A stretch of 64,000 nt of DNA, taken from positions 4,661,568 to 4,725,567 of the forward strand of contig NC_057925.1 in assembly GCF_018873765.1 (NCBI RefSeq). The letters run 5' to 3'. Within the stretch, counting starts at the first letter, position 1, and each line of letters starts with the position of its first letter. Below are positions 2,730 to 59,100 of the stretch, one piece after another. The stretch is from Telopea speciosissima. Taxonomy: Eukaryota; Streptophyta; Magnoliopsida; Proteales; Proteaceae. The position numbers and the translations under genes were made by a program. The notes beneath the pieces are model-generated. The model did no database searches. It saw nothing but the letters and a program-made list of their open reading frames with translations, and was not told the DNA's origin.

Positions 2730-3875
2730 ATCTCATTGAGGGGGTTGAATGTTCACGTATGTGAGCGTACATGAACAACTCAGCCGTTCAGATGGAACAT
2801 TACCACAGAATAGATTCCATCTGAACGTTAACATTCCCTGCACTCTGTCATTTCGTGTGTATATTTTTCACTTCAAAAAGATAAAAACAAAAATAGCTTC
2901 AGCTTACGAAAGGAAAGCTACCTTCTTATGCCCGGCACGTTTATTTTTGGTTAGTGTCGGTTTTGGGATATAACTGATTGGGATAGATCGGTTTTACCGA
3001 TGTGGACCTAGAATTGACATCCCCAGGCTCTAGCCTCTAAGGCCTTTACAATGCATAGTGGATGTCCCTCTAAAAAAGGAAAACAACAAAATAAAGAGTA
3101 TCTAAGAATAGTTTATTTTATTATCCACTTAACAATACAATTAAGTCTGGGTCTCGTACTATTGCAACACCTAAGGCAGCATCTTTGGTCCCGAGAACGG
3201 TGAAGCCCAACAATGTTAAACCCAAATTGCAATCTTCATGAGATTGTCCACAAATCCCTTACAACTCCGTCCTAACATTCGGTTCAAAAATATGAAAATT
3301 AGTTCAACAGTAGAGCATAATCTATTTAACATTCTACAATAATTCCTGTCATGAAAAGTGTATCAGCCATGACATCTTTAAATTTAAAAGAAAAAAAATG
3401 GGCCAGTTTGGATCGAATTGATTCTATACAAAAATTAGGGTTTAAGGGGTTTTCTAGCGATTTTCACCAATTCCGGGTGATGTCCTCTTTGACCTTGAGT
3501 TAAGCGATCCATTCTTATCCTTACTATATTGTATTAGGTTCTTCATTTGGGCAATATAAATATTCTTCTACATTTTCAAATTTACGTTTGAGCAGCATCA
3601 GGAGCACCTTCAGCGGATGAAAGTATATAATAAATGGTGCAAAATGCGTGGAAGAAGGATCGCAAAGAATGTGACATGCCTTATATATTCTCTCGAACAA
3701 ATTTGTCGGCAAAATCAACTCATATAAATATCGCACCATCGATTCAAGCTTCAGATCAAGAAGCATCTCTCTTTTTAGACCTTTCTGGTGTTGCTTCTTG
3801 CAAAGCAAATGAGTGGAACCGGAAGTATCCAGTAGGTTCTGTTTAAGATGCATATGTAATCCTAATTAATAACTA
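2730..3875. other. Intergenic, no gene seen
   Basis: AT-rich sequence. Near 2774-2829 there is a small inverted repeat with arms GTTCAGATGGAA and TTCCATCTGAAC. Short frames around 3524-3853 occur on both strands and look like chance. Confidence 0.5.
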
Positions 3876-3880
3876 AAGGG

Positions 3881-4011
3881 GCGTTGTTCTCTGTGCCGCA
3901 GCACAGGCTGCGCCCAGGCACATGGGGGTGGGCGCAGTGACCACCTTGTCCCCTGCACAAGCTGTCCATGTGCTTGGGTGCAACCTGCACTGCGGCACAA
4001 AGAACATTCTC
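3881..4011. mobile_element. Foldback MITE-like element
   Basis: Inverted arms run from GTTGTTCTCTGTGCCGCAGC at the left to the matching GCGGCACAAAGAACA at the right. The element is GC-rich in AT-rich surroundings. Its centre carries GTGACCACCTTGTCCCC, related to the core motif of other foldbacks in the window. The target duplication is not clear. Confidence 0.7.
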
Positions 4012-5456
4012 CTTAACTTATAAGGTTGGTTTTGTTTGGGCTTATCATGGATGATTCAACCAGATACATTCAAGATGATGTTCGTTGGTATATGATTTTC
4101 GTTGATGAACTTGTTTTGTTGGATGAGACAAAAGCAAAGATTAATACCAGATCGGACTTATAAAGATCAATCTTCAAATCCGAAACGTTATAAGATGAAT
4201 AAAATGAAGACGAAGTATAAGGTATGTAACAGCGGTCACACTATGATGGATAATGAGGTGATGAAAATTGATGAGAGTGGGATATTCCTTGAAATGATTA
4301 TTTTAGGTATCTAGGCTTAATCATAAATAAAGAATGTGATATAAAGGATGATATTTCACAGAGAATTAAAATAGGATAGATGAAATAGAAAAATGTGTCC
4401 GTAGTGTTGTGTGTTCGACAACATATTCTTTTAAAATTTTAAAAAAAAAATTTATAGAACAGTCATATGACTTGCAAAAATAAAAACTTTTTTCCTATAA
4501 AATATTAAAAATAAAAAACAATTGATTGCAATTGATTGATTATAGGCCATACAATTAAACCAAGAGATGACCCACCAGACCGTTGGCAATACTATGTTCC
4601 ATACACCGAAAGTAATGAATTTAATCATCCACCAATTAAAACTAGGGGGTCACTTTACCAAAAAAAAAAACTAGGGGGTCAAAGATTACTGTGGGGTGTA
4701 AGCACAATTTGTTTAATAATAAACTTTAATCTTTATTATTAAAAAGGACAGTTACTTAGATGATATTTCTATAGGTGTATTTAGAACTTGGTGTCAACAC
4801 TTTTAATATGATTTAAAAAATAAAAGATCAAATCCACTAATTTGGATCGAAATGGAATTAATCATGATCAATTCCGATTCCAACTATTTTGAAACAATCG
4901 ATAAAAATGTTTTTGGGACTGTTTTTCATGAGGTTTCAGACTTGAGCAAGGCAATTCTAGAATATTTGGGATCAATTCCAACCAATTTCAATCCATCTTG
5001 AATAAAAAACAGTAGTAGTAATCGATTTGAACCCATTTTTCATGGATTTTTATTCTCTCAAGTGTGATGCACTGCCTAACACTTGAAAGGATAATAAAAT
5101 GCCACTGCCCATGTTTTTATTGTTGAATTCTCAAATGTGATGCATGATGCATTTGACCGCACTTGAAAAGATAGAAATCCATTTCCCACTATTTGATTGA
5201 TGTGGTGTAGGAAATTTCCGTAAACATGAGCGGCGTGTGAAAGTGAAACCCTTGCCCAAATCTTTAATGTGAAAACCACGGGCACCAAACTCGACTCCAC
5301 CAAATTTAAAGTGTGCTTCCTTTTTGCAACCCTTAGTTTTGTTTATTCCAGCAAGTTCTGGAAGAAAACTCCCTAATTACTAGTAACTTCAAGTAACTCT
5401 TCCGATGAGAAAGATCAAGTGGTGGAGAAACTCTGATTATGTGGGACCATTGCGTA
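4012..5456. other. AT-rich intergenic, no gene seen
   Basis: Only short, repetitive frames. A direct repeat of AAAACTAGGGGGTCA occurs near 4635-4680. Confidence 0.45.
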
Positions 5457-14940: not shown

Positions 14941-15860
14941 AGAAATCGTCGAGCGGTCCTGCGAGTGCCGTCACCTGCAAGTGGACCAAAGGGGTCAACA
15001 GAGAGAACCGGTGTAGTCCCGACCTAGGGCTCTCCGATGCCAAAGTTAGATCTCCTGGCGCAAATAGATGAATAGTGATTATTCAGTATGAGTTTTGATG
15101 TCCCCTATGGGGTTGTGTACCTTGCCTTTTATAGTAGCATATGGCGGTGTGGAGAGTCCCAGTCTGATGGCGATTGTGTCGTTGAGTGGATAGAGGCCCT
15201 GGGTAATGGGGCTCTATCCTGATTGGCCATCTCCCCGTGGGAGGGAGTGTCCTGGTGGCATCAGGATCCTTGGTGGATAGATACCCGCGTGTGGTGATAA
15301 CGTCCTTGGTGCTTGAATCCGTCTGGGTGACGTGACTTCTAAGCGGCGGTCTAGAGTCCTGATAGTGACATGAGTCTTAGCGATACGATCGGATCGTAGA
15401 TGGGTGGCCCCCACCTCACGTGCCCACGATGCTGTGCCTGGGTGCAAGCCGCGCCTGGGTGAGGCCGAGCCTGGATGTGTGGCCGTGCCTAGGTGAAGCC
15501 GCGCCCGCCTGGATGTGTGGCCGCGCCTAGGTGAGGCCTCGCCCAAGTGGTGGCCGCACCTGGGTGAGGCCGCGCCTAGGTGAGGCCGCGCCTGGGGTGA
15601 GGCCGCGCCCCTCGGATGTGTGGCCGCGCCCGCGGGGTGGCCCTGCCTAGGTGAGGCCGGGCCCGAGGGGTGGCCGCGCCTGGGTGAGGCCGCGCCTTGA
15701 TGTGTGGCCGCGCCTAGGTGAGGCCGCGCCCGAGTGGTGGCCGCGCCTGGGTGAGGCCGCGCCCGAGTGCTGGGACCCGGTTCGTTCTCCTTGGCTATGG
15801 AACGGGTCGCCTGTGACACGTGGCGATCGTTGATTGGCCCGATGAATATTGGATGTATCA
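14941..15860 (-). mobile_element. Solo LTR, 920 bp, with 5-bp target duplication
   Basis: On the plus strand it starts TGTTGCGTCAAG and ends GGATGTATCA, so it has the TG...CA ends of an LTR. ATAAT flanks it exactly (14936-14940 and 15861-15865). Orientation is minus because a TATA-like box (complement of CTTTTATAGTAG near 15127) lies upstream of the terminus shared with 8184-9052. No internal domain or second LTR lies nearby, so it is a solo LTR from recombination. The unusual GC-rich tandem array at 15430-15770 lies inside it. Confidence 0.88.
15430..15770. repeat. GC-rich minisatellite inside the solo LTR
   Basis: Irregular repeats of about 19-40 bp built from GGCCGCGCC, TAGGTGAGGC and GATGTGTGGCC. 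GC content is far above the surroundings. It creates long overlapping frames rich in Gly, Pro, Arg and His on both strands that are not genes. Confidence 0.9.
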
Positions 15861-15865
15861 ATAAT

Positions 15866-18490: not shown

Positions 18491-19467
18491 TAGATAAGAG
18501 TCCATGACCAAAACAAACAAGAATCCATGGCTAAAGAACTTGTTCGAAATCCTTCGGTTAGAATACATTTCTTTCAAATTTATAAGGGAGATGGATCTGT
18601 ACAATAGACTATATATTGACATCATATACATTAGAGAGACAAAGATAATTTTCTATAGGTGTCAAAGTATACAATAACAGGTCTACGGTATTAATGATGA
18701 GCGAACATAGAGATTATGTTAGAGGATGTATATTTTAGTGCCATTTGCAGTTCTTTTCCTTTTATATAATTATGAAAACTTATAAAGATTTTAATCTTTT
18801 TTTTTTTTTTTTTGAGTAAGAATAAAGGTTTTAATCTTGCATTAAATTTAAGGTAAAAGATTGGCTGGGTGAACCTAAGCTTGGATTGGTGGTTCACCAG
18901 TTCTATCATGTGGAAGGATGATATGGGATTTTATAACGTCGTTGGATATCTGAGGAATAATCTGAATTTACATGTCGAACTTTAGCCTCAAATTAAACCA
19001 TTTACCTTCCTCTCATGTATGTACATGCATCCCTTTGAGGTCCATACACCCTTTTAGTTGTCTCAAAATTTTTTTTTTCCGGCCAATGCTTTATTTTTTT
19101 ACCTATCAAACTCCATTTCATCTAAAACTTGACATGTGAGCAAGTCTACCAATCCACCAAATCTCATTCCAATTAGACATGATATTTTGGCTTTTCTATG
19201 TAAGATTTGGAAACACATTTTCTAGTTAGAACCATAAGTGGATGTGAAGGAGGATGGGAAGCTTTTAACAATGGTTATTTAAAACTACTCTCTTAAAGAA
19301 ATGCTAATTTTGTTTGAGATAATCATTAATTACTAAACTATTAATTTATCCAAAAACAAAAAGTCAAATAATAGATTCATGAACTCATTGATGATGCCAA
19401 TATAACCATTTTGACTTATTATCTGCAAAATGTCAATTTAATTAAAATTGAATAAGGAAAAAAAATA
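18491..19467. other. Intergenic, no gene seen
   Basis: AT-rich with poly(T) runs near 18795 and 19065. No supportable feature. Confidence 0.5.
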
Positions 19468-19902
19468 GGTAAAGTACACGTACCCCTGTAGTGCATCCAA
19501 TATTCCTCATACCCCCTAAGCGGTTTAATATTCAACGTACCACCCCTGTTTTATACCCCAAATGCCAGGTAGGTCCAATCCGTTAAATACCACCGATAGA
19601 TGCCAAAATTTTGACCATTTTACCCTTTGCTTCATTTTCTTAAATCTGAAAAAGACTTAATTATCCTCACTTATTTGTTGTCCTAAACTAATTAAAAAAT
19701 GATCATTTTATCCTAAACTAATTAAAAAATGATCATTTTATCCTTTGTTTTATTTTTATAAATAAAAAGACCTAATTGCCCTCATTTATGTATTACCCTA
19801 ACCTAATTTGAAAAGACTATTTTACCCCTAAATATTTGTTCCTAAAAATCCCAAAATGCCCTCATCTTCCTCAAATCATCATCCTCTTTTACATACCAAC
19901 CA

Positions 19903-19934
<32 letters not shown>

Positions 19935-21420
19935 GCCAGCACCACCACCACCATTGGCTTTGGGTTCTAAGACAAATGCGAGGAAAAGGGCTATCATTGT
20001 TGCGGAGAAGAAATCGAGTATCGAAATGCTCGGTGAAGATGGAGTATCGGGTTCCTCTTCTTTGCTCTCAATAGAATATCGAAAGCCTTCTTCACCTCTT
20101 CGCTTCTCTGCTGTCCAGATTGAGGTGAATTCCCCTGCTGCTGCTGCTGCCGCAACCTGGGATTCAGATACAGATTCCTATTCGCCGTTTGTGCAGGGCG
20201 GAACCCCAATCCGCCGCCAATTGTAGATGAATTAATGGAGCTTGAAGCATTCAGAGACTGTTCTATGGTGGCTTTGACAGCAGGGCTAGAAAAGCTAGCC
20301 TCTCTCATGACTCGGCTCACACTTGGGTCATCAAGGATCGAAACAATGAGCTGTTCAAGCTCCACCTTTACGGCTAAAAGGGGTTGTTGCTCCTGCTCTG
20401 GGCAGCCTCTGCGTTGATGGGCTTGAGCTCGCTTGAGCGCAGCCATGAGAGCATTAGAGATTGGGGGGTCAATACCAGGGGAGAGGTTCTGGGCTGAAGG
20501 GAGACGCTCGAGGGCAACACTGAAACAAAGTTCGAGTGCTCTGCATTGGAGTGGGTGAGAAGAGTTTGGGTGAGATCGAATGCAGGCTGATCGAAGGTAC
20601 CCAGATGCAGAGGCCAAAAGTGTTGCAGCGACATGGAGTGGCGTGGTTTGGCCGTGATTCCGACGAGCTGCTTCGGCGATTGAGTGGTTCAGAACACTCG
20701 CCGCCTCTGGGGTTAATGTCTGCTGGATTGTACTCAAACCAGCTCTCATGATGGGTTCTCTGCTGCTTCAACTTCTACGAATTTCTCAAAAAAACTAATA
20801 GAGAACAAGGCACATAGCAATCTCTGAAACAAAATTAAAGAAACCCACCAAAATTCAGGTTTCTCATCCCCGCCGCTGGCTTCCGATACTCCATCTTCAC
20901 CGACCATTCGATACTCGATTTCTTCTCCGCAACAATGATAGCCCTTTTCCTCGCATTTGTCTTAGAACCCAAAGCCAATGGTGGGTGGTGGTGGCGCTGG
21001 GTATGTAAAAGAAGATGGTGATTTGGGGAAGATGAGGGCATTTTGAGATTTTTAGGAACAAATATTTAGGGTTAAAATAGTCTTTTCAAATTATGTTAGG
21101 GTAATACATAAATGAGGGCAATTAGGTCTTTTCATTTATAAAAATAAAACAAAGGGTAAAATGGCCATTTTCAATTAGTTTAGGGCAACAAATAAGTGAG
21201 GGTAATTAAGTCTTTTCAGATTTAAGAAAATAGAGTAAAGGGTAAAATGGTCAAAATTTTGGCATCTAACGGTGGTATTTAACGGATTGAACCTATCTGG
21301 CATTTGGGGTATAAAACAGGGGTGATACGTGGAATATTAAAGGGTGGTACGTGGAATATTGAGCCGCTTATGGGGTACTAGGAATATTGAGTGCATTATA
21401 AGGAGTACGTGTACTTTACC
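19468..21420. mobile_element. Pack-MULE-like element carrying a SMAX1-like gene piece
   Basis: Very long terminal inverted repeats bracket the element: left about 19468-20051 and right about 20878-21420. They begin GGTAAAGTACACGTAC on both sides and share GACCATTTTACCCTTT, TTTGGGTTCTAAGACAAATG and CGGTGAAGATGGAGTATCGG. Repeats of more than 500 bp enclosing a host-gene segment are the hallmark of Pack-MULEs. The interior is the 5' end of a SMAX1-like gene. No transposase frame is present. I could not see a 9-bp target duplication (flanks AAAAAAATA and TCTATAAGT differ), so superfamily is inferred from TIR length and capture. The left TIR carries a CCGCCA microsatellite (about 19905-19950) reduced in the right TIR. 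Confidence 0.82.
19994..20749 (-). pseudogene. Captured 5' fragment of a SMAX1/SMXL gene
   Basis: The 251-codon frame starts at ATG 20749 with [20 protein letters not shown] and follows the N-terminal double Clp-N region of SMAX1-type proteins, including [57 protein letters not shown] and [20 protein letters not shown]. Homology stops after RAKKRNPIL (about residue 236, near 20052), where the frame runs into the terminal repeat and ends 15 codons later. The two P-loop ATPase-like halves and EAR motif of full SMAX1 (about 990 residues) are absent. SMAX1 represses karrikin and strigolactone-type responses with MAX2 and KAI2. A fragment with only Clp-N would lack those parts. It is open and undamaged, so it could be expressed, but it is a capture rather than a gene. 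Confidence 0.88.
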
Positions 21421-21615
21421 TCTATAAGTCTAGAAGTATCTTTAGAGAATTAATTTTAAAAAATAACAATGTTAAGATAGTAGAAGATCTCAGTATAATC
21501 CTATGGAATCTAGAACTTCTTTGACTTCTACAGTAATAGAAGGGGAGTGGAAGGAGGTCGTCCTGCCTCCTTGACTTCTCCATATTTAGAATTGGAATAG
21601 TGCTCTCTGCAACAC

Positions 21616-21798
21616 AGATCTTCTACGGTGCACTGCCTTGTCCTGCCTGTGCTGCACAAACACAAGGCTACGTGCAATGACTGCCTTACCCCCACTTGGG
21701 CAAGGCGCTCGAGCAGGGGTAAGGCGATCAATGCACACCACCTTGTGTCTGCGCAGCACGGCAGGACGGGCAGCCCATGCTCTAGAAGATCTGGATCC
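21616..21798. mobile_element. Foldback element, GGATCC family (copy 4)
   Basis: Arms AGATCTTCTACGGTGCACTG and GCTCTAGAAGATCTGGATCC. The centre has AATGACTGCCTTACCCCC and, inverted, GGGGTAAGGCGATCAATG. Similar in size to copies 1-3. Confidence 0.82.
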
Positions 21799-24424
21799 CT
21801 CTCTCTCTCTATCACAATATTAATTCAATGGAAAATAAAGGGGTGAGGACAGTAACAGTATTCACTTATCATATTGGAAGGAAGTAGCGAGGTCATTTCA
21901 TGTGAAGAGGAGAGAGATAGATACAAATGTGCTAGTGTACCCTTTCCCGGCTTCTTAGAGAATTTTTTCCCTAGAAAACTTTTATAAGGAATTATTGTGT
22001 AACTAACTAAAAATCTTACTATGGTCATTTAATATTCCTTAGCCATATTATATTTCCTATTCAAATATAAATATTTTGGTTAGACAGTGAAGAAAATTTT
22101 AAGGGAATAGAATTCCTACAAGCTCCCAGCAAGAACTCATTCTTACTACACAATAGTTTGGTTGGATTTAAATTTGATAGACAGTTGTCCACATCATCAT
22201 CTATCCATTGTTATAATGAAAACATCGATGTAGCATATCCAAGTATCATTATACTGGTTTAATAAAAGTTTGAAAATCTGAAAAATTAATTTAACATAAA
22301 TCATTGGAAAATCAAGGGGGAAGGCTCTTACAAGATGAGACATACAGTTAAGATTAGCCACCATATTTGAGAGATGATATACCATCGAAGTTCAAAGTGT
22401 ACCCAATGGACAATCTGCTAAATCATCAATCCATCGTGGCTGAAAAAAATAAAGGCATGGGCCAAACATTTTTCAAAAATTTAATACTATGGCGAAAAAG
22501 AATGCTAATTGGTCGCGTGCAGCCTACGCCTAGACGCAGCCCCTTGAAATGACCGCCCCACCCCTACAAAATGAAAAATCCCCTCCAGTCGATGCTCCTA
22601 CACGTGTTTCCATTGGCCCCATACAGGTGCAGGGACAGGCAGCTTGGCACCGACCCCTTGTACTATAGTTAGTAAGTTTTCACTATATTTAGTAAGATCA
22701 ATAGTCTCTCTCTCATTTGGAGGGGGTAGTAATATTATTTTGCTTGATTTAATTAAAATACAAAAACACAACCGCTAGATGGTACTAGATTTGCGGTTTC
22801 AGAGCAAGATACAAGATTCATGTGAGGGATTACAGGGAAGTCAATATCTTATTTAATAGAGACACTGGACTGTAGTAAACTCTGGTAAGGTATTTACTAT
22901 AAATAAAAAATAACTCTAGTAAGGTAAGGATTTATGTGAGTAGGGAAAACCAAATAACTAATAAAATTGAAAATGATAAACTGCTATTATGGGACATGAT
23001 TAGAGGGTTAGCTGACCCTTTTAGTCCTCTAAACTCTCTTATTTTAAGGGAGTAGAGATCAGTTTTCTTATAACAATCAAAACCCTCCTTTTTTTCATTG
23101 ATTAAGAAAATAGGAGAGAAATTATAGATATGGTAAGACATGTTTGCAAATATGCCTCTTCTAATACATCAACAACGTGCCTCGATCTGTGTTAACTTGG
23201 TAGACGTGCGTGAGAGAGAGAGAGAGAGAGAGAGCATGGGATAGAGGTGAGAACTCTCTCAAGAATCAGGTTGTGATTGGCAGGAAAACATGTGAATTTA
23301 AACTCGTGAAAATGAAAAATATAGTGAGGTGGTCTCCTTAGATTCCCCAAGACCACCTTTGTATATATTCAACTCACATAACCCTCTTTCAATATTCATG
23401 GTTTCACGGATTTAAATTCTTTCTCTCTCTTTCTCACACACACTCACACACACATAAGGAATCGTAGGAATAGTTATAGAGATCACTTCCAATGTATTCT
23501 GCTCATCTCACTTTCTTTTTAATACTAACTTACTTGACAATATCATATTCTTCTAAACGGATTATGAATCAGGATGGTTCATGCCCAGTGGTCGGCCCGA
23601 ATGGGCCAATTCCAAGCCGATCGAGATGGAACAGTTATAAAAATGAGCTGTTGACCATTAATCAGAGAAGAGAATATATATCAACAATCCAACAGTATGT
23701 CTCATCTGATTATCCAATCTGATAGTGAACGAATTGGCCGGTTCGGATCAGACATCCGAATCAGCCAAGCCAAAGCCAATCCCAATTCTGGGAAGGGCAC
23801 CATCTACATCAAACCAGACTGAACAAACCAAATCAGATGTTTTCTGATCGAGCCAATTGACCCACTCAGTTGAACCTATGACCCGAGTAGTTGTCCTCTA
23901 TTCCATAAACTCAGTTTTTTTTCTGGGTTGACCCATTGGTCGGATCAGAATGGACATATTAATCTATGAAGAACCACGATTGAGACAGCATCTATGACTC
24001 TGCACTTAACATTAAAATATTTATCTTTTCCTGTTAACACATCCATCAATCCATAAATACAAATATAATAACAGAAGCTAAAGCATGGTCTTGAGCGCTT
24101 ACTTAATAGAATCATATTCTTTTTTTCTGTGTTTTGGTGAATACTTAGAATAATAGTAGACATGCTAGGAACTATCTTGAAGAGAATTTTTGTTCTTAGA
24201 TTAATAATCTTAAAATATAAGTTTACTAAGTACTAAAGGATCACCAACGGTCTCATGGGCTTGAAAATTTTCTCCAAACGTGACAACATTTAAGCCAAAC
24301 TACACTATTCACAGTCTCACTCACTACAAATCCCACACCCTCAGTCCCATCCATTGCACTCTCAATTCTATTTCCGGCTTTCCCTACCAACACTCTCCCA
24401 TCTAAGCTTTCTCAGCCAACCAAC
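21799..24424. other. Intergenic and DREB2F promoter side
   Basis: No firm gene. About 22505-22670 is GC-rich with AATGACCGCCCCACCCC, a likely MITE. A GA repeat lies at about 23211-23234. A 76-codon frame at 23492-23722 starts with a signal-like hydrophobic stretch (MYSAHLTFFLILTYLTISYS) but then runs into GGCCGAATGGGCC-type repeat sequence, so I do not call it. The last 150 bases before 24425 are pyrimidine-rich and suit a 5' UTR. Confidence 0.45.
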
Positions 24425-39476: not shown

Positions 39477-40287
39477 ATGGCATTTGTGGCTCAAAACCTA
39501 GACCTGGTCTTGGTCCCTTCAGGGCTTTTGATCATGTTCACCTATCATCTCTACCTCCTCTACCGAGTCCTAAAATATCCTTCAACAACAGCCATCGGCT
39601 ATGAGAACCACAATTGGATGGCTTGGGTTGAGAGAATGATGCAAGTTAGGTTAATTACTACTACTACTACTACTACTACTCTTCTCTGTTTTCTGATTTT
39701 CCATTCACTAAAGGTATTACATATCTAATTTGCAGGGTGACTTGAGTTATGTAAGCCTAGCAATATCAGTGTTATCAAACAGCATATCTGGTTCGATCTA
39801 CTTGGCTTCCTTTTGCCTTTCATTCTTCTCTTTCATAGGCGTATGGGTGGGAAGTTCCAGTAGCAACGCCGTCAATGTCGTGTTTATACTAGGGAACACA
39901 ACCCAGGCCAACATTTCCCTCAAAAACATAAGCATGCTTGTAACTTTCATGCTGGCCTTTGGGGCGTTTATTCAGTCGGTGAGGTACTTTGTTCAGGCGA
40001 ACTCGTTAATAAGTATGCCGAATAAGGATGTGCCGGTGAGTTATGTGCAGAGGTTGGTGTTAAGGGGGAATAATTTCTGGCAGGTTGGGCTGAGGGTGGT
40101 CTACTTTGCTATGGCTTTCTTGTTTTGGAGTTTTGGACCAATACCCATGTTTGCTTCTTGTGTGATTATGGTCATATGTCTGTATTTCTTGGATACCACT
40201 AAGGAACCTTTGCATCTGTTCCGGCCGCTGGTTGAGCCTCCATTGAAGAAGGTGGTGGAGGAGGTGGTTGCTGTAGCTAGGGCATAG
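39477..40287 (+). CDS. DUF599 membrane protein, paralog A (two exons)
   Basis: Exons 39477-39644 and 39736-40287, joined by a 91-bp GT...AG intron (CAA|GTTAGG and TTTGCAG|GGT), encode 239 residues. The product fits plant DUF599 proteins: LDLVLVPSGLLIMFTYHLYL (8-27) as the first membrane segment, the family mark YENHNWMAWVERMM, further hydrophobic segments near 77-94, 121-137 and 176-207, and conserved RGNNFWQVGLR, WSFGPIPMF and YFLDT. DUF599 function is unknown; an integral membrane location is inferred. The intron holds eight ACT units. This copy lies at the end of duplication block A, and a DREB2F tail fragment follows 250 bp after its stop. Confidence 0.92.
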
Positions 40288-51638: not shown

Positions 51639-52446
51639 ATGGCATTTGCGGCTCAAAACCTAGACCTGGTCTTGGTCCCTTCAGGGCTTTTGATCATGTT
51701 CACCTATCATCTCTACCTCCTCTACCGAGTCCTAAAATATCCCTCAACAACAGCCATCGGCTATGAGAACCACAACTGGATGGCTTGGGTTGAGAGAATG
51801 ATGCAGGTTAGGTTAATTACTACTACTACTACTACTACTATTCTCTGTTTTCTGATTTTCCATTCACTAAATGTATTCCATATCTAATTTGCAGGGTGAC
51901 TTGAGTTATGTAAGCCTAGCAATATCAGTGTTATCAAACAGCATAACCGGTTCGCTCTACTTGGCTTCCTTTTGCCTTTCATTCTGCCCTTTCATAGGAG
52001 TATGGGTGGGAACTTCCGCTACCAACGCCATCAATTCTGTGTTTATACTGGGGAACACAAGCCAGGCCACCACTTCCCTCAAAAACGTAAGCATGCTTGT
52101 AGGTTTCATGCTGGCCTTTGGGGCATTTATTCAGTCGGTGAGGTACTTTGTTCAGGCGAACTCATTGATAAGTATGCCGAATAAGGATGTGCCGGTGAGT
52201 TATGTGCAGAGGTTGGTGTTAAGGGGGAATAATTTCTGGCAGGTTGGGCTGAGGGTGGTCTACTTTGCTATGGCTTTCTTGTTTTGGAGTTTTGGACCAA
52301 TACCCATGTTTGCTTCTTGTGTGGTTATGGTCATATTTCTGTATTTCTTGGATACCAATAGGGAACCTTTGCATCTGTTCCGGCCGCTGGTTGAGCCTCC
52401 GTTGAAGAAGGTGGTGGAGGAGGTGGTTGCTGTAGCTAGGGCATAG
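51639..52446 (+). CDS. DUF599 membrane protein, paralog B (two exons)
   Basis: Exons 51639-51806 and 51895-52446, intron 88 bp with seven ACT units, 239 residues. Splice sites CAG|GTTAGG and TTTGCAG|GGT. Exon 1 matches paralog A except F/A at residue 4. Exon 2 is divergent in the stretch from about residue 86 to 126: it has GTSATNAINSVFILGNTSQA where A and C share GSSSSNAVNVVFILGNTTQA. The C-terminal third is almost identical in all three. Function unknown; integral membrane protein by its hydrophobic segments. The frame is intact. Confidence 0.92.
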
Positions 52447-58494: not shown

Positions 58495-59100
58495 TTCTCT
58501 GTTTTCTGATTTTCCATTCACTAAATGTATTCCATATCTAATTTGCAGGGTGACTTGAGTTATGTAAGCCTAGCAATATCAGTGTTATCAAACAGCATAA
58601 CTGGTTCGATCTACCTGGCTTCCTTTTGCCTTTCATTTTTCGCTTTCATAGGAGTATGGGTGGGAAGTTCCAGTAGCAACGCCGTCAATGTCGTGTTTAT
58701 ACTGGGAAACACAACCCAGGCCAACATTTCCCTCAAAAACATAAGCATGCTTGTAACTTTCATGCTGGCCTTTGGGGCGTTTATTCAGTCGGTGAGGTAC
58801 TTTGTTCAGGCGAACTCGTTAATAAGTATGCCGAATAAGGATGTGCCGGTGAGTTATGTGCAACGGTTGGTGTTAAGGGGGAATAATTTCTGGCAGGTTG
58901 GGCTGAGGGTGGTCTACTTTGCTATGGCTTTCTTGTTTTGGAGTTTTGGACCAATACCCATGTTTGCTTCTTGTGTTGTTATGGTCATATGTCTGTATTT
59001 CTTGGATACCAACAAGGAACCTTTGCATCTGTTCCGGCCGCTGGTTGAGCCTCCGTTGACGAAGGTGGTGCAGGAGGTGGTTGCTGTAGCTAGGGCATAG
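58281..59100 (+). CDS. DUF599 membrane protein, paralog C (two exons)
   Basis: Exons 58281-58448 and 58549-59100, intron 100 bp with eleven ACT units, 239 residues. Differences from A include MGVVAQ at the N-terminus, I11, D24 for H in the first membrane segment, R46 for H, and LTKVVQEV near the C-terminus. D24 inside the hydrophobic TYDLYLLY stretch is notable. The promoter and exon 1 flank follow copy B; most of exon 2 and the 3' UTR follow copy A. Frame intact. Function unknown. Confidence 0.92.

Follow-up and report, generated by a model that had tools for sequence, protein, structure and literature searches.

A probable young Pack-MULE carrying the open 5' end of SMAX1 in Telopea speciosissima

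Results and discussion

Architecture of the element

The window, by which we mean the whole 64,000-nucleotide stretch of contig NC_057925.1 of Telopea speciosissima that was analysed, contains an inverted-repeat element that encloses the 5' end of the SMAX1 gene, whose product represses smoke and strigolactone-type signalling. Its features are as follows (window coordinates).

19467..20050, + strand: left arm (3' arm in the SMAX1 sense), 584 bp, outer end AGGTAAAGTACACGTAC
19757, + strand: mirror image of the TATAAAT at 21134..21140, motif match only
19948..20050, + strand: inner segment of the left arm, present on both sides of the window element
19994..20749, - strand: open frame of 251 residues, of which 1-234 are SMAX1 and the last 17 are encoded by the left arm
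20049..20859, - strand: captured SMAX1 part, about 811 bp (110 bp of leader plus codons 1-234)
20835..21041, - strand: upstream ORF of 68 residues, starting within the right arm
20860..21421, - strand: right arm (5' arm in the SMAX1 sense)
21134..21140, - strand: TATAAAT, motif match only

A first-pass annotation of this DNA had described inverted repeats of about 540-580 bp around the SMAX1 5' end, in agreement with the arms of 584 and 539 bp measured here. The 539 bp (20883-21421) are the part of the right arm that is repeated in inverted orientation at the left, and 20860-20882 are transposon sequence with no left-side counterpart. When the arms are aligned, 486 of 516 ungapped sites are identical and 91 columns contain gaps; their minus-strand match scores 591 bits, as against at most 30.1 in 92 random pairs of window stretches. 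The captured part is 50.6% GC and the arms 38%. No transposase frame lies within the window element. The mirrored TATAAAT motifs are possible inward promoters, judging from the motif match, and 12 ATGs lie between the outer end of the right arm and the SMAX1 ATG, or fewer if transcription starts below the TATAAAT. An Rfam scan of positions 19000-22000 gave nothing at the gathering score, and folding of the junction fragment was dropped as evidence because 12 of 200 shuffles folded equally well.

Just outside the element, at 21649-21759, is an inverted repeat with two 53-nt arms, 75% complementary and 5 nt apart. Elsewhere in the window, three similar genes for DUF599 proteins (39730-40287, 51871-52446 and 58525-59100, + strand) form a local cluster, and a 215-codon frame at 15214-15861 (minus strand) shows a repeated Arg/Pro/Gly/His-rich pattern and may represent a repeat array and not a gene.

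The captured frame and its parent gene

The frame begins at the natural ATG at 20749 on the minus strand and runs to 19994 without stop or frameshift, giving the 251-residue protein with a new tail in the TIR that the first-pass annotation had reported. Residues 1-236 align to Arabidopsis SMAX1 (PDB 9kkx_D) with an E-value of 4e-106. The identity amounts to 144 of 157 aligned residues in 1-158, where the N domain is present, and to 39 of 73 in 159-234. Pfam Clp_N scores 19.7 bits on the frame, slightly under its cutoff of 20.7, so the SMAX1 identity is founded on the structure-sequence match, the genome protein search and the comparison with the parent. Neither LxLxL nor DLNxxP (EAR motif) occurs in the 251 residues, from which D1M and D2 with RGKT are also missing.

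The protein search, run on the assembly that contains the window (822.9 Mb, 1287 contigs), gave 42 match rows and found the window copy, a 251-residue frame at C4:9.446 Mb, a split frame at C6:37.99 Mb, the parent and a paralogue. The parent SMAX1 lies at C4:29.57 Mb, on another chromosome than the window, and is 97% identical over residues 1-236; at the DNA level, the captured part is 96% identical to it. The paralogue, on C11, reaches 87% in the protein search. RGKT and FDLN motifs were read by eye in the open frames of the parent, whose frame is 425 codons from the ATG, which places the end of the capture within an open frame. The stretch shared by window and parent extends from 110 bp before the window ATG (94 bp in the parent) to a point inside codon 234. 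Beyond it I235, L236 and the rest of the tail are arm-encoded, as evidenced by AACCCAATTTTC in the parent where the window element has AACCCGATACTCC. The SMAX1 origin that had been claimed for codons 1 to about 236 therefore stands, but not the end point. Sixteen bp of the leader (within window 20805-20859) are missing from the parent and present in the carriers that have this stretch (the window copy and L050) and in an older copy on C1 (L066, see below); the parent's gap is probably a later loss in the parent.

The 9.9 kb of the parent locus yielded no match to the arms. Any remaining SMAX1 sequence around the element was sought by eye among ORFs of at least 75 residues starting between 8 and 34 kb, and afterwards through the genome searches. 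Both a parent SMAX1 and further copies of the TIR (next section) were found in the genome; the first-pass annotation had named the lack of either as refuting its proposal. The window copy could have been the in-place remains of the sole SMAX1 gene, a reading that has the absent target duplication of the window element in its favour and nothing else. It is refuted by the parent on C4 and the paralogue on C11, with two sister carriers also against it, and its probability is next to nil.

A multicopy family of Mutator-like ends

A genome search with the arms returned at least 45 match rows, its own included, with 40 of 1421 candidates scored. Of 29 loci excised from outside the window, 16 have both ends visible; two of those loci are a single element, which leaves n = 15 elements. 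Of these 15 relatives, 12 are flanked by a 9-bp target duplication that has one mismatch or none, and in 10 it is exact. One of the exact duplications consists of A alone, and two of the 12 loci have the same 9-mer. A wrong-partner control with wider shifts gave 0/286 exact pairs and 8/286 with one mismatch, some of the control flanks not being true element ends. Target duplications of MULEs range from 8 to 11 bp. The commonest end in the family is GGGTAAAGTACACGT. The interiors of the 15 elements fall into nine kinds at an E-value of 1e-5, with six alike at about 96-98%, two alike at 87% and seven without a match among the others. Given the multicopy arms and the 9-bp duplications in 12 of the 15 relatives, we classify the TIR family as Mutator-like (Pack-MULE) on these sequence features. 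The proposal of a Pack-MULE-like element is thus borne out by a multicopy TIR family, 9-bp duplications, varied interiors and a parent SMAX1 elsewhere.

The window element itself has no target duplication, its flanking 9-mers, AAAAAAAAT and CTATAAGTC, differing by six mismatches. This absence marks the window insertion site only, and membership among the MULEs is accordingly claimed through the TIR family. A candidate duplication with ATAAG as its last bases, some 10 bp beyond the left end, was dropped because many offset combinations had been tried. In the genome 150 MULE transposase domains (PF10551) were scored, as domains alone, and none was tied to the TIRs. Viral contigs gave five isolated matches to the TIR end, which we attribute to chance. 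A search for SMAX1 relatives among viral contigs and prokaryote genomes gave pattern matches, none of which tblastn confirmed as a relative.

The element is of a kind already known and is well documented here; any function it has would be putative. It resembles the Pack-MULEs described in PMC13317346 in its TIR family, 9-bp duplications, varied interiors and lack of an internal transposase, and also in the capture of the GC-richer 5' end of a gene and in the presence of more than one copy after capture. It differs from that description in that the window copy is without its own target duplication and the captured frame is undamaged and runs into the arm. A brief literature search found nothing linking Pack-MULEs to SMAX1.

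Three copies of the loaded element

A search with the captured DNA, in which all 15 of 15 candidates were scored, returned three carriers (one in two pieces), the parent, the paralogue, four older fragments and weak matches, and no fourth carrier with the same arms. Missing from the copy at C4:9.446 Mb are its 5' arm, which was not found in about 12 kb of upstream sequence, and the initial 62 bp of the 832-bp query; its frame stays open as far as the stop in the arm-encoded tail that the window copy also uses. About 140 bp upstream of this 5'-truncated SMAX1 piece, in the same direction, lies a U1 snRNA gene (Rfam RF00003, 126.5 bits; L048 3241-3401, minus strand). The copy at C6:37.99 Mb has both arms and the duplication ATTTTAATT/TTTTTAATT (8/9). 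A 3.2-kb insertion interrupts its frame. The insertion has 291-bp end repeats that are 99.3% alike and is flanked by a 5-bp duplication, AGCAG; we identify it, from these features, as an LTR-type element.

The arm-encoded tail is common to the window, C4 and C6 copies. Together with the junctions and two shared synonymous changes, it points to one capture from which all three carriers would stem. In a quick tree of the captured part, the three carriers did not form a supported clade (support 0.12).

Mechanism of capture

The inner arm segment (at least 40 bp of it) is found on one side only in 9 of the 15 relatives, is absent from 6, and occurs on both sides in none. In the SMAX1 carriers, it is on both sides of the window and C6 copies and on the surviving 3' side of the C4 copy. 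One relative, L029, has all 103 bp of the inner arm followed by GAAGCCAGAGGCGGGGATGAGAAG, up to the point at which the window switches from transposon to SMAX1. At this switch point the parent has the junction match GAGAAG (the window now reads GAGAAA), and at the other capture junction the match is CC. The inner arm segment has 1 mismatch in 102 sites, as against 29 in 414 outside it (Fisher p 0.017); a change-point test of this arm-age gradient, reached by 123 of 2000 shuffles, is weak alone.

The one-sided inner arm in the relatives suggests gap repair with template switching, and capture in this way, as a single event, is the account towards which we lean, if with no great assurance. Repair of a break inside an older element would have used the opposite arm as template, copying its inner part inward. 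At the CC match, the repair would have switched into SMAX1, copied back about 0.8 kb and rejoined at the GAGAAG match, so that one event would account for both the symmetry of the inner arms and the SMAX1 cargo. The loaded element would then have transposed by means of a transposase supplied in trans, and its frame is most likely still open because little time has passed. Gap filling with short sequence matches has been described for Pack-TIR elements (PMC8277862), whose duplications are alike in their junction microhomology and in the template switching inferred for them. The elements in that description are mostly single-copy in animals, whereas here the loaded element is present at three places and the inner arm is copied across.

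The long arms on both sides would also be expected if two neighbouring insertions flanking SMAX1 had been mobilised jointly, as PMC8903248 proposes for Pack-TYPE elements. We consider this unlikely, as the 9.9-kb parent locus is free of arm sequence, the two joins show short matches and lie inside the arms, and the symmetrical inner arm is confined to the SMAX1 carriers. We are confident, though short of certain, that the window contains a young non-autonomous Mutator-like element (Pack-MULE) whose cargo, the SMAX1 5' end, was copied at the DNA level.

Age of the copy and state of the frame

Codon changes were counted by parsimony on 229 of 236 columns, those free of gaps; the seven excluded columns contain about three additional replacement changes among the carriers. 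Synonymous (S) and replacement (N) changes are distributed as follows.

Stem: 2 S, 0 N
Window copy: 1 S, 5 N
C4 copy: 0 S, 2 N
C6 copy: 4 S, 3 N
Parent: 1 S, 1 N

The changes after capture thus comprise 10 N and 7 S, where the neutral expectation is 68-75% N (two-sided p 0.16-0.44 over three transition weights), although with so few substitutions the test has low power. Between parent and paralogue the counts are about 28 N to 56 S, and the comparison with the post-capture changes gives a Fisher p of 0.058 with the stem and 0.021 without it. The chance of no stop after six changes is 0.79. A simulation with the indel rate taken from the arms gave an open-frame chance of 0.01-0.18, which leaves some room for selection; we trust the former figure over it, since the arm indels were judged to be mostly in simple repeats.

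The synonymous divergence from the parent is 0.024, on four changes only. At assumed rates of 7e-9 to 1.3e-8 substitutions per site and year, this corresponds to about 1-2 million years, with a wide error. The arm-arm divergence of 0.061 gives 2.3-4.4 million years at the same rates, and a larger arm divergence is to be expected if the arms predate the capture. It had been proposed that intactness reflects youth or selection. Youth suffices, given the 0.79 chance of no stop together with counts of 10 N and 7 S that fit neutral drift, and the frame is most likely intact owing to the youth of the copy. Selection is not needed as a cause, and as a necessary one it was rejected.

Other captures of SMAX1 and its relatives

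A second element, at L066 (C1:63.90 Mb, about 3193-4985), holds a decayed SMAX1 piece covering nearly the same stretch as window 20049-20859. Its ends differ (GGGAAAATT...), and a perfect 9-bp duplication, ATAATATTA, was read by eye. At ten sites it agrees with the paralogue where the carriers agree with the parent, at none does it agree with the carriers against both, and at one it agrees with the parent alone. This 10-to-0 pattern marks L066, on its sequence, as an older and separate Pack-MULE capture. Its breakpoints nonetheless lie within about 5 nt (3') and about 7-13 nt (5', depending on how GAGAAG is counted) of those of the window copy.

Three further decayed copies, L067 (C9:10.23), L068 (C4:6.43) and L069 (C48), extend from upstream of SMAX1 to about codon 320 and partly share their flanks. 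In L068, 83-bp inverted repeats surround the SMAX1 fragment, and on this account these copies likely represent a third transposon capture, less firmly based than that of L066.

Fragments of another SMXL gene occur at L070 (C4:34.80), L071 (C2:47.48) and L072 (C3:43.45 Mb). The L070 piece has the SMAX1 nucleotide-binding domain PF23569, with a transposase-associated domain, PF13963, beside the fragment, and the L072 fragment is adjoined by a stretch near-identical to L070's PF13963 neighbour. The presence of PF13963, which we take to indicate a CACTA-type link, suggests that the carriers at L070 and L072 are CACTA-type.

Possible consequences

The first-pass annotation had considered that a Clp-N-only protein, or siRNA from the long repeats, could affect the parent gene. 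As many as 12 ATGs precede the frame, which lacks both an EAR motif and the RGKT/D2 region, and an effect of the protein or its RNA on SMAX1 is probably absent or weak.

At the RNA level, transcripts converging from the mirrored arm promoters could pair along the captured part into double-stranded RNA, a source of siRNAs that could lower the parent SMAX1. The captured parts, about 94-98% identical to the parent, and the mirrored TATAAAT motifs in the arms would allow this, and siRNAs of captured genes acting on donor genes are reported in a review (PMC13317346). The long repeats have no match in the parent locus, which argues the other way: siRNAs from a hairpin stem would not target SMAX1, and only transcripts of the captured part could. 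The stem was accordingly rejected as a source, the claim for siRNA from the long repeats falls with it, and silencing by the remaining route is improbable.

At the protein level, a putative Clp-N-only product affecting signalling is possible and not the reading we favour. The 251-residue protein would have to be made, evade hormone-triggered degradation, as it might in lacking D2 and RGKT, and compete with full SMAX1 for transcription factors. The native-ATG frame is open in the window and C4 copies, and is split by the insertion in the C6 copy. According to PMC12184505, the Arabidopsis SMAX1 N domain is the output part, sufficed for a set of transcription-factor contacts in yeast two-hybrid assays, and is stated to be stabler than the full protein; an N210-SRDX fusion replaced SMAX1 and was insensitive to karrikin. 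These data would favour a new regulator. In the same source, N158 without the repression motif had no effect in Arabidopsis, and N210 was tested there only with that motif. The window frame has no LxLxL or DLNxxP motif of its own, 12 upstream ATGs precede it, and the window copy has accumulated 5 N changes to 1 S. We therefore regard such a regulator as very unlikely. Compared with the miniature SMAX1 N-domain constructs of that work, so far as they are described there, the frame is alike in having the N domain without D1M and D2; it differs in being natural, in having no added repression motif, in extending to residue 234 plus 17 new residues, and in being predicted only. Should the truncated form be translated, these laboratory miniatures would have a natural counterpart that is easy to test.

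Two captures whose breakpoints nearly coincide, a probable third capture and two open frames raise the further idea that the SMAX1 N-terminal module is a recurrent cargo, and that a transposon may spread a hormone-blind miniature tuning germination or seedling growth. To this idea we attach a very slight probability. The parent, the paralogue, SMAX1-free relatives and three loaded copies together make up an unusually complete record, in which the order of the capture events becomes readable through the apparent transfer of the inner arm to the other side and the use of two short matches as switch points.
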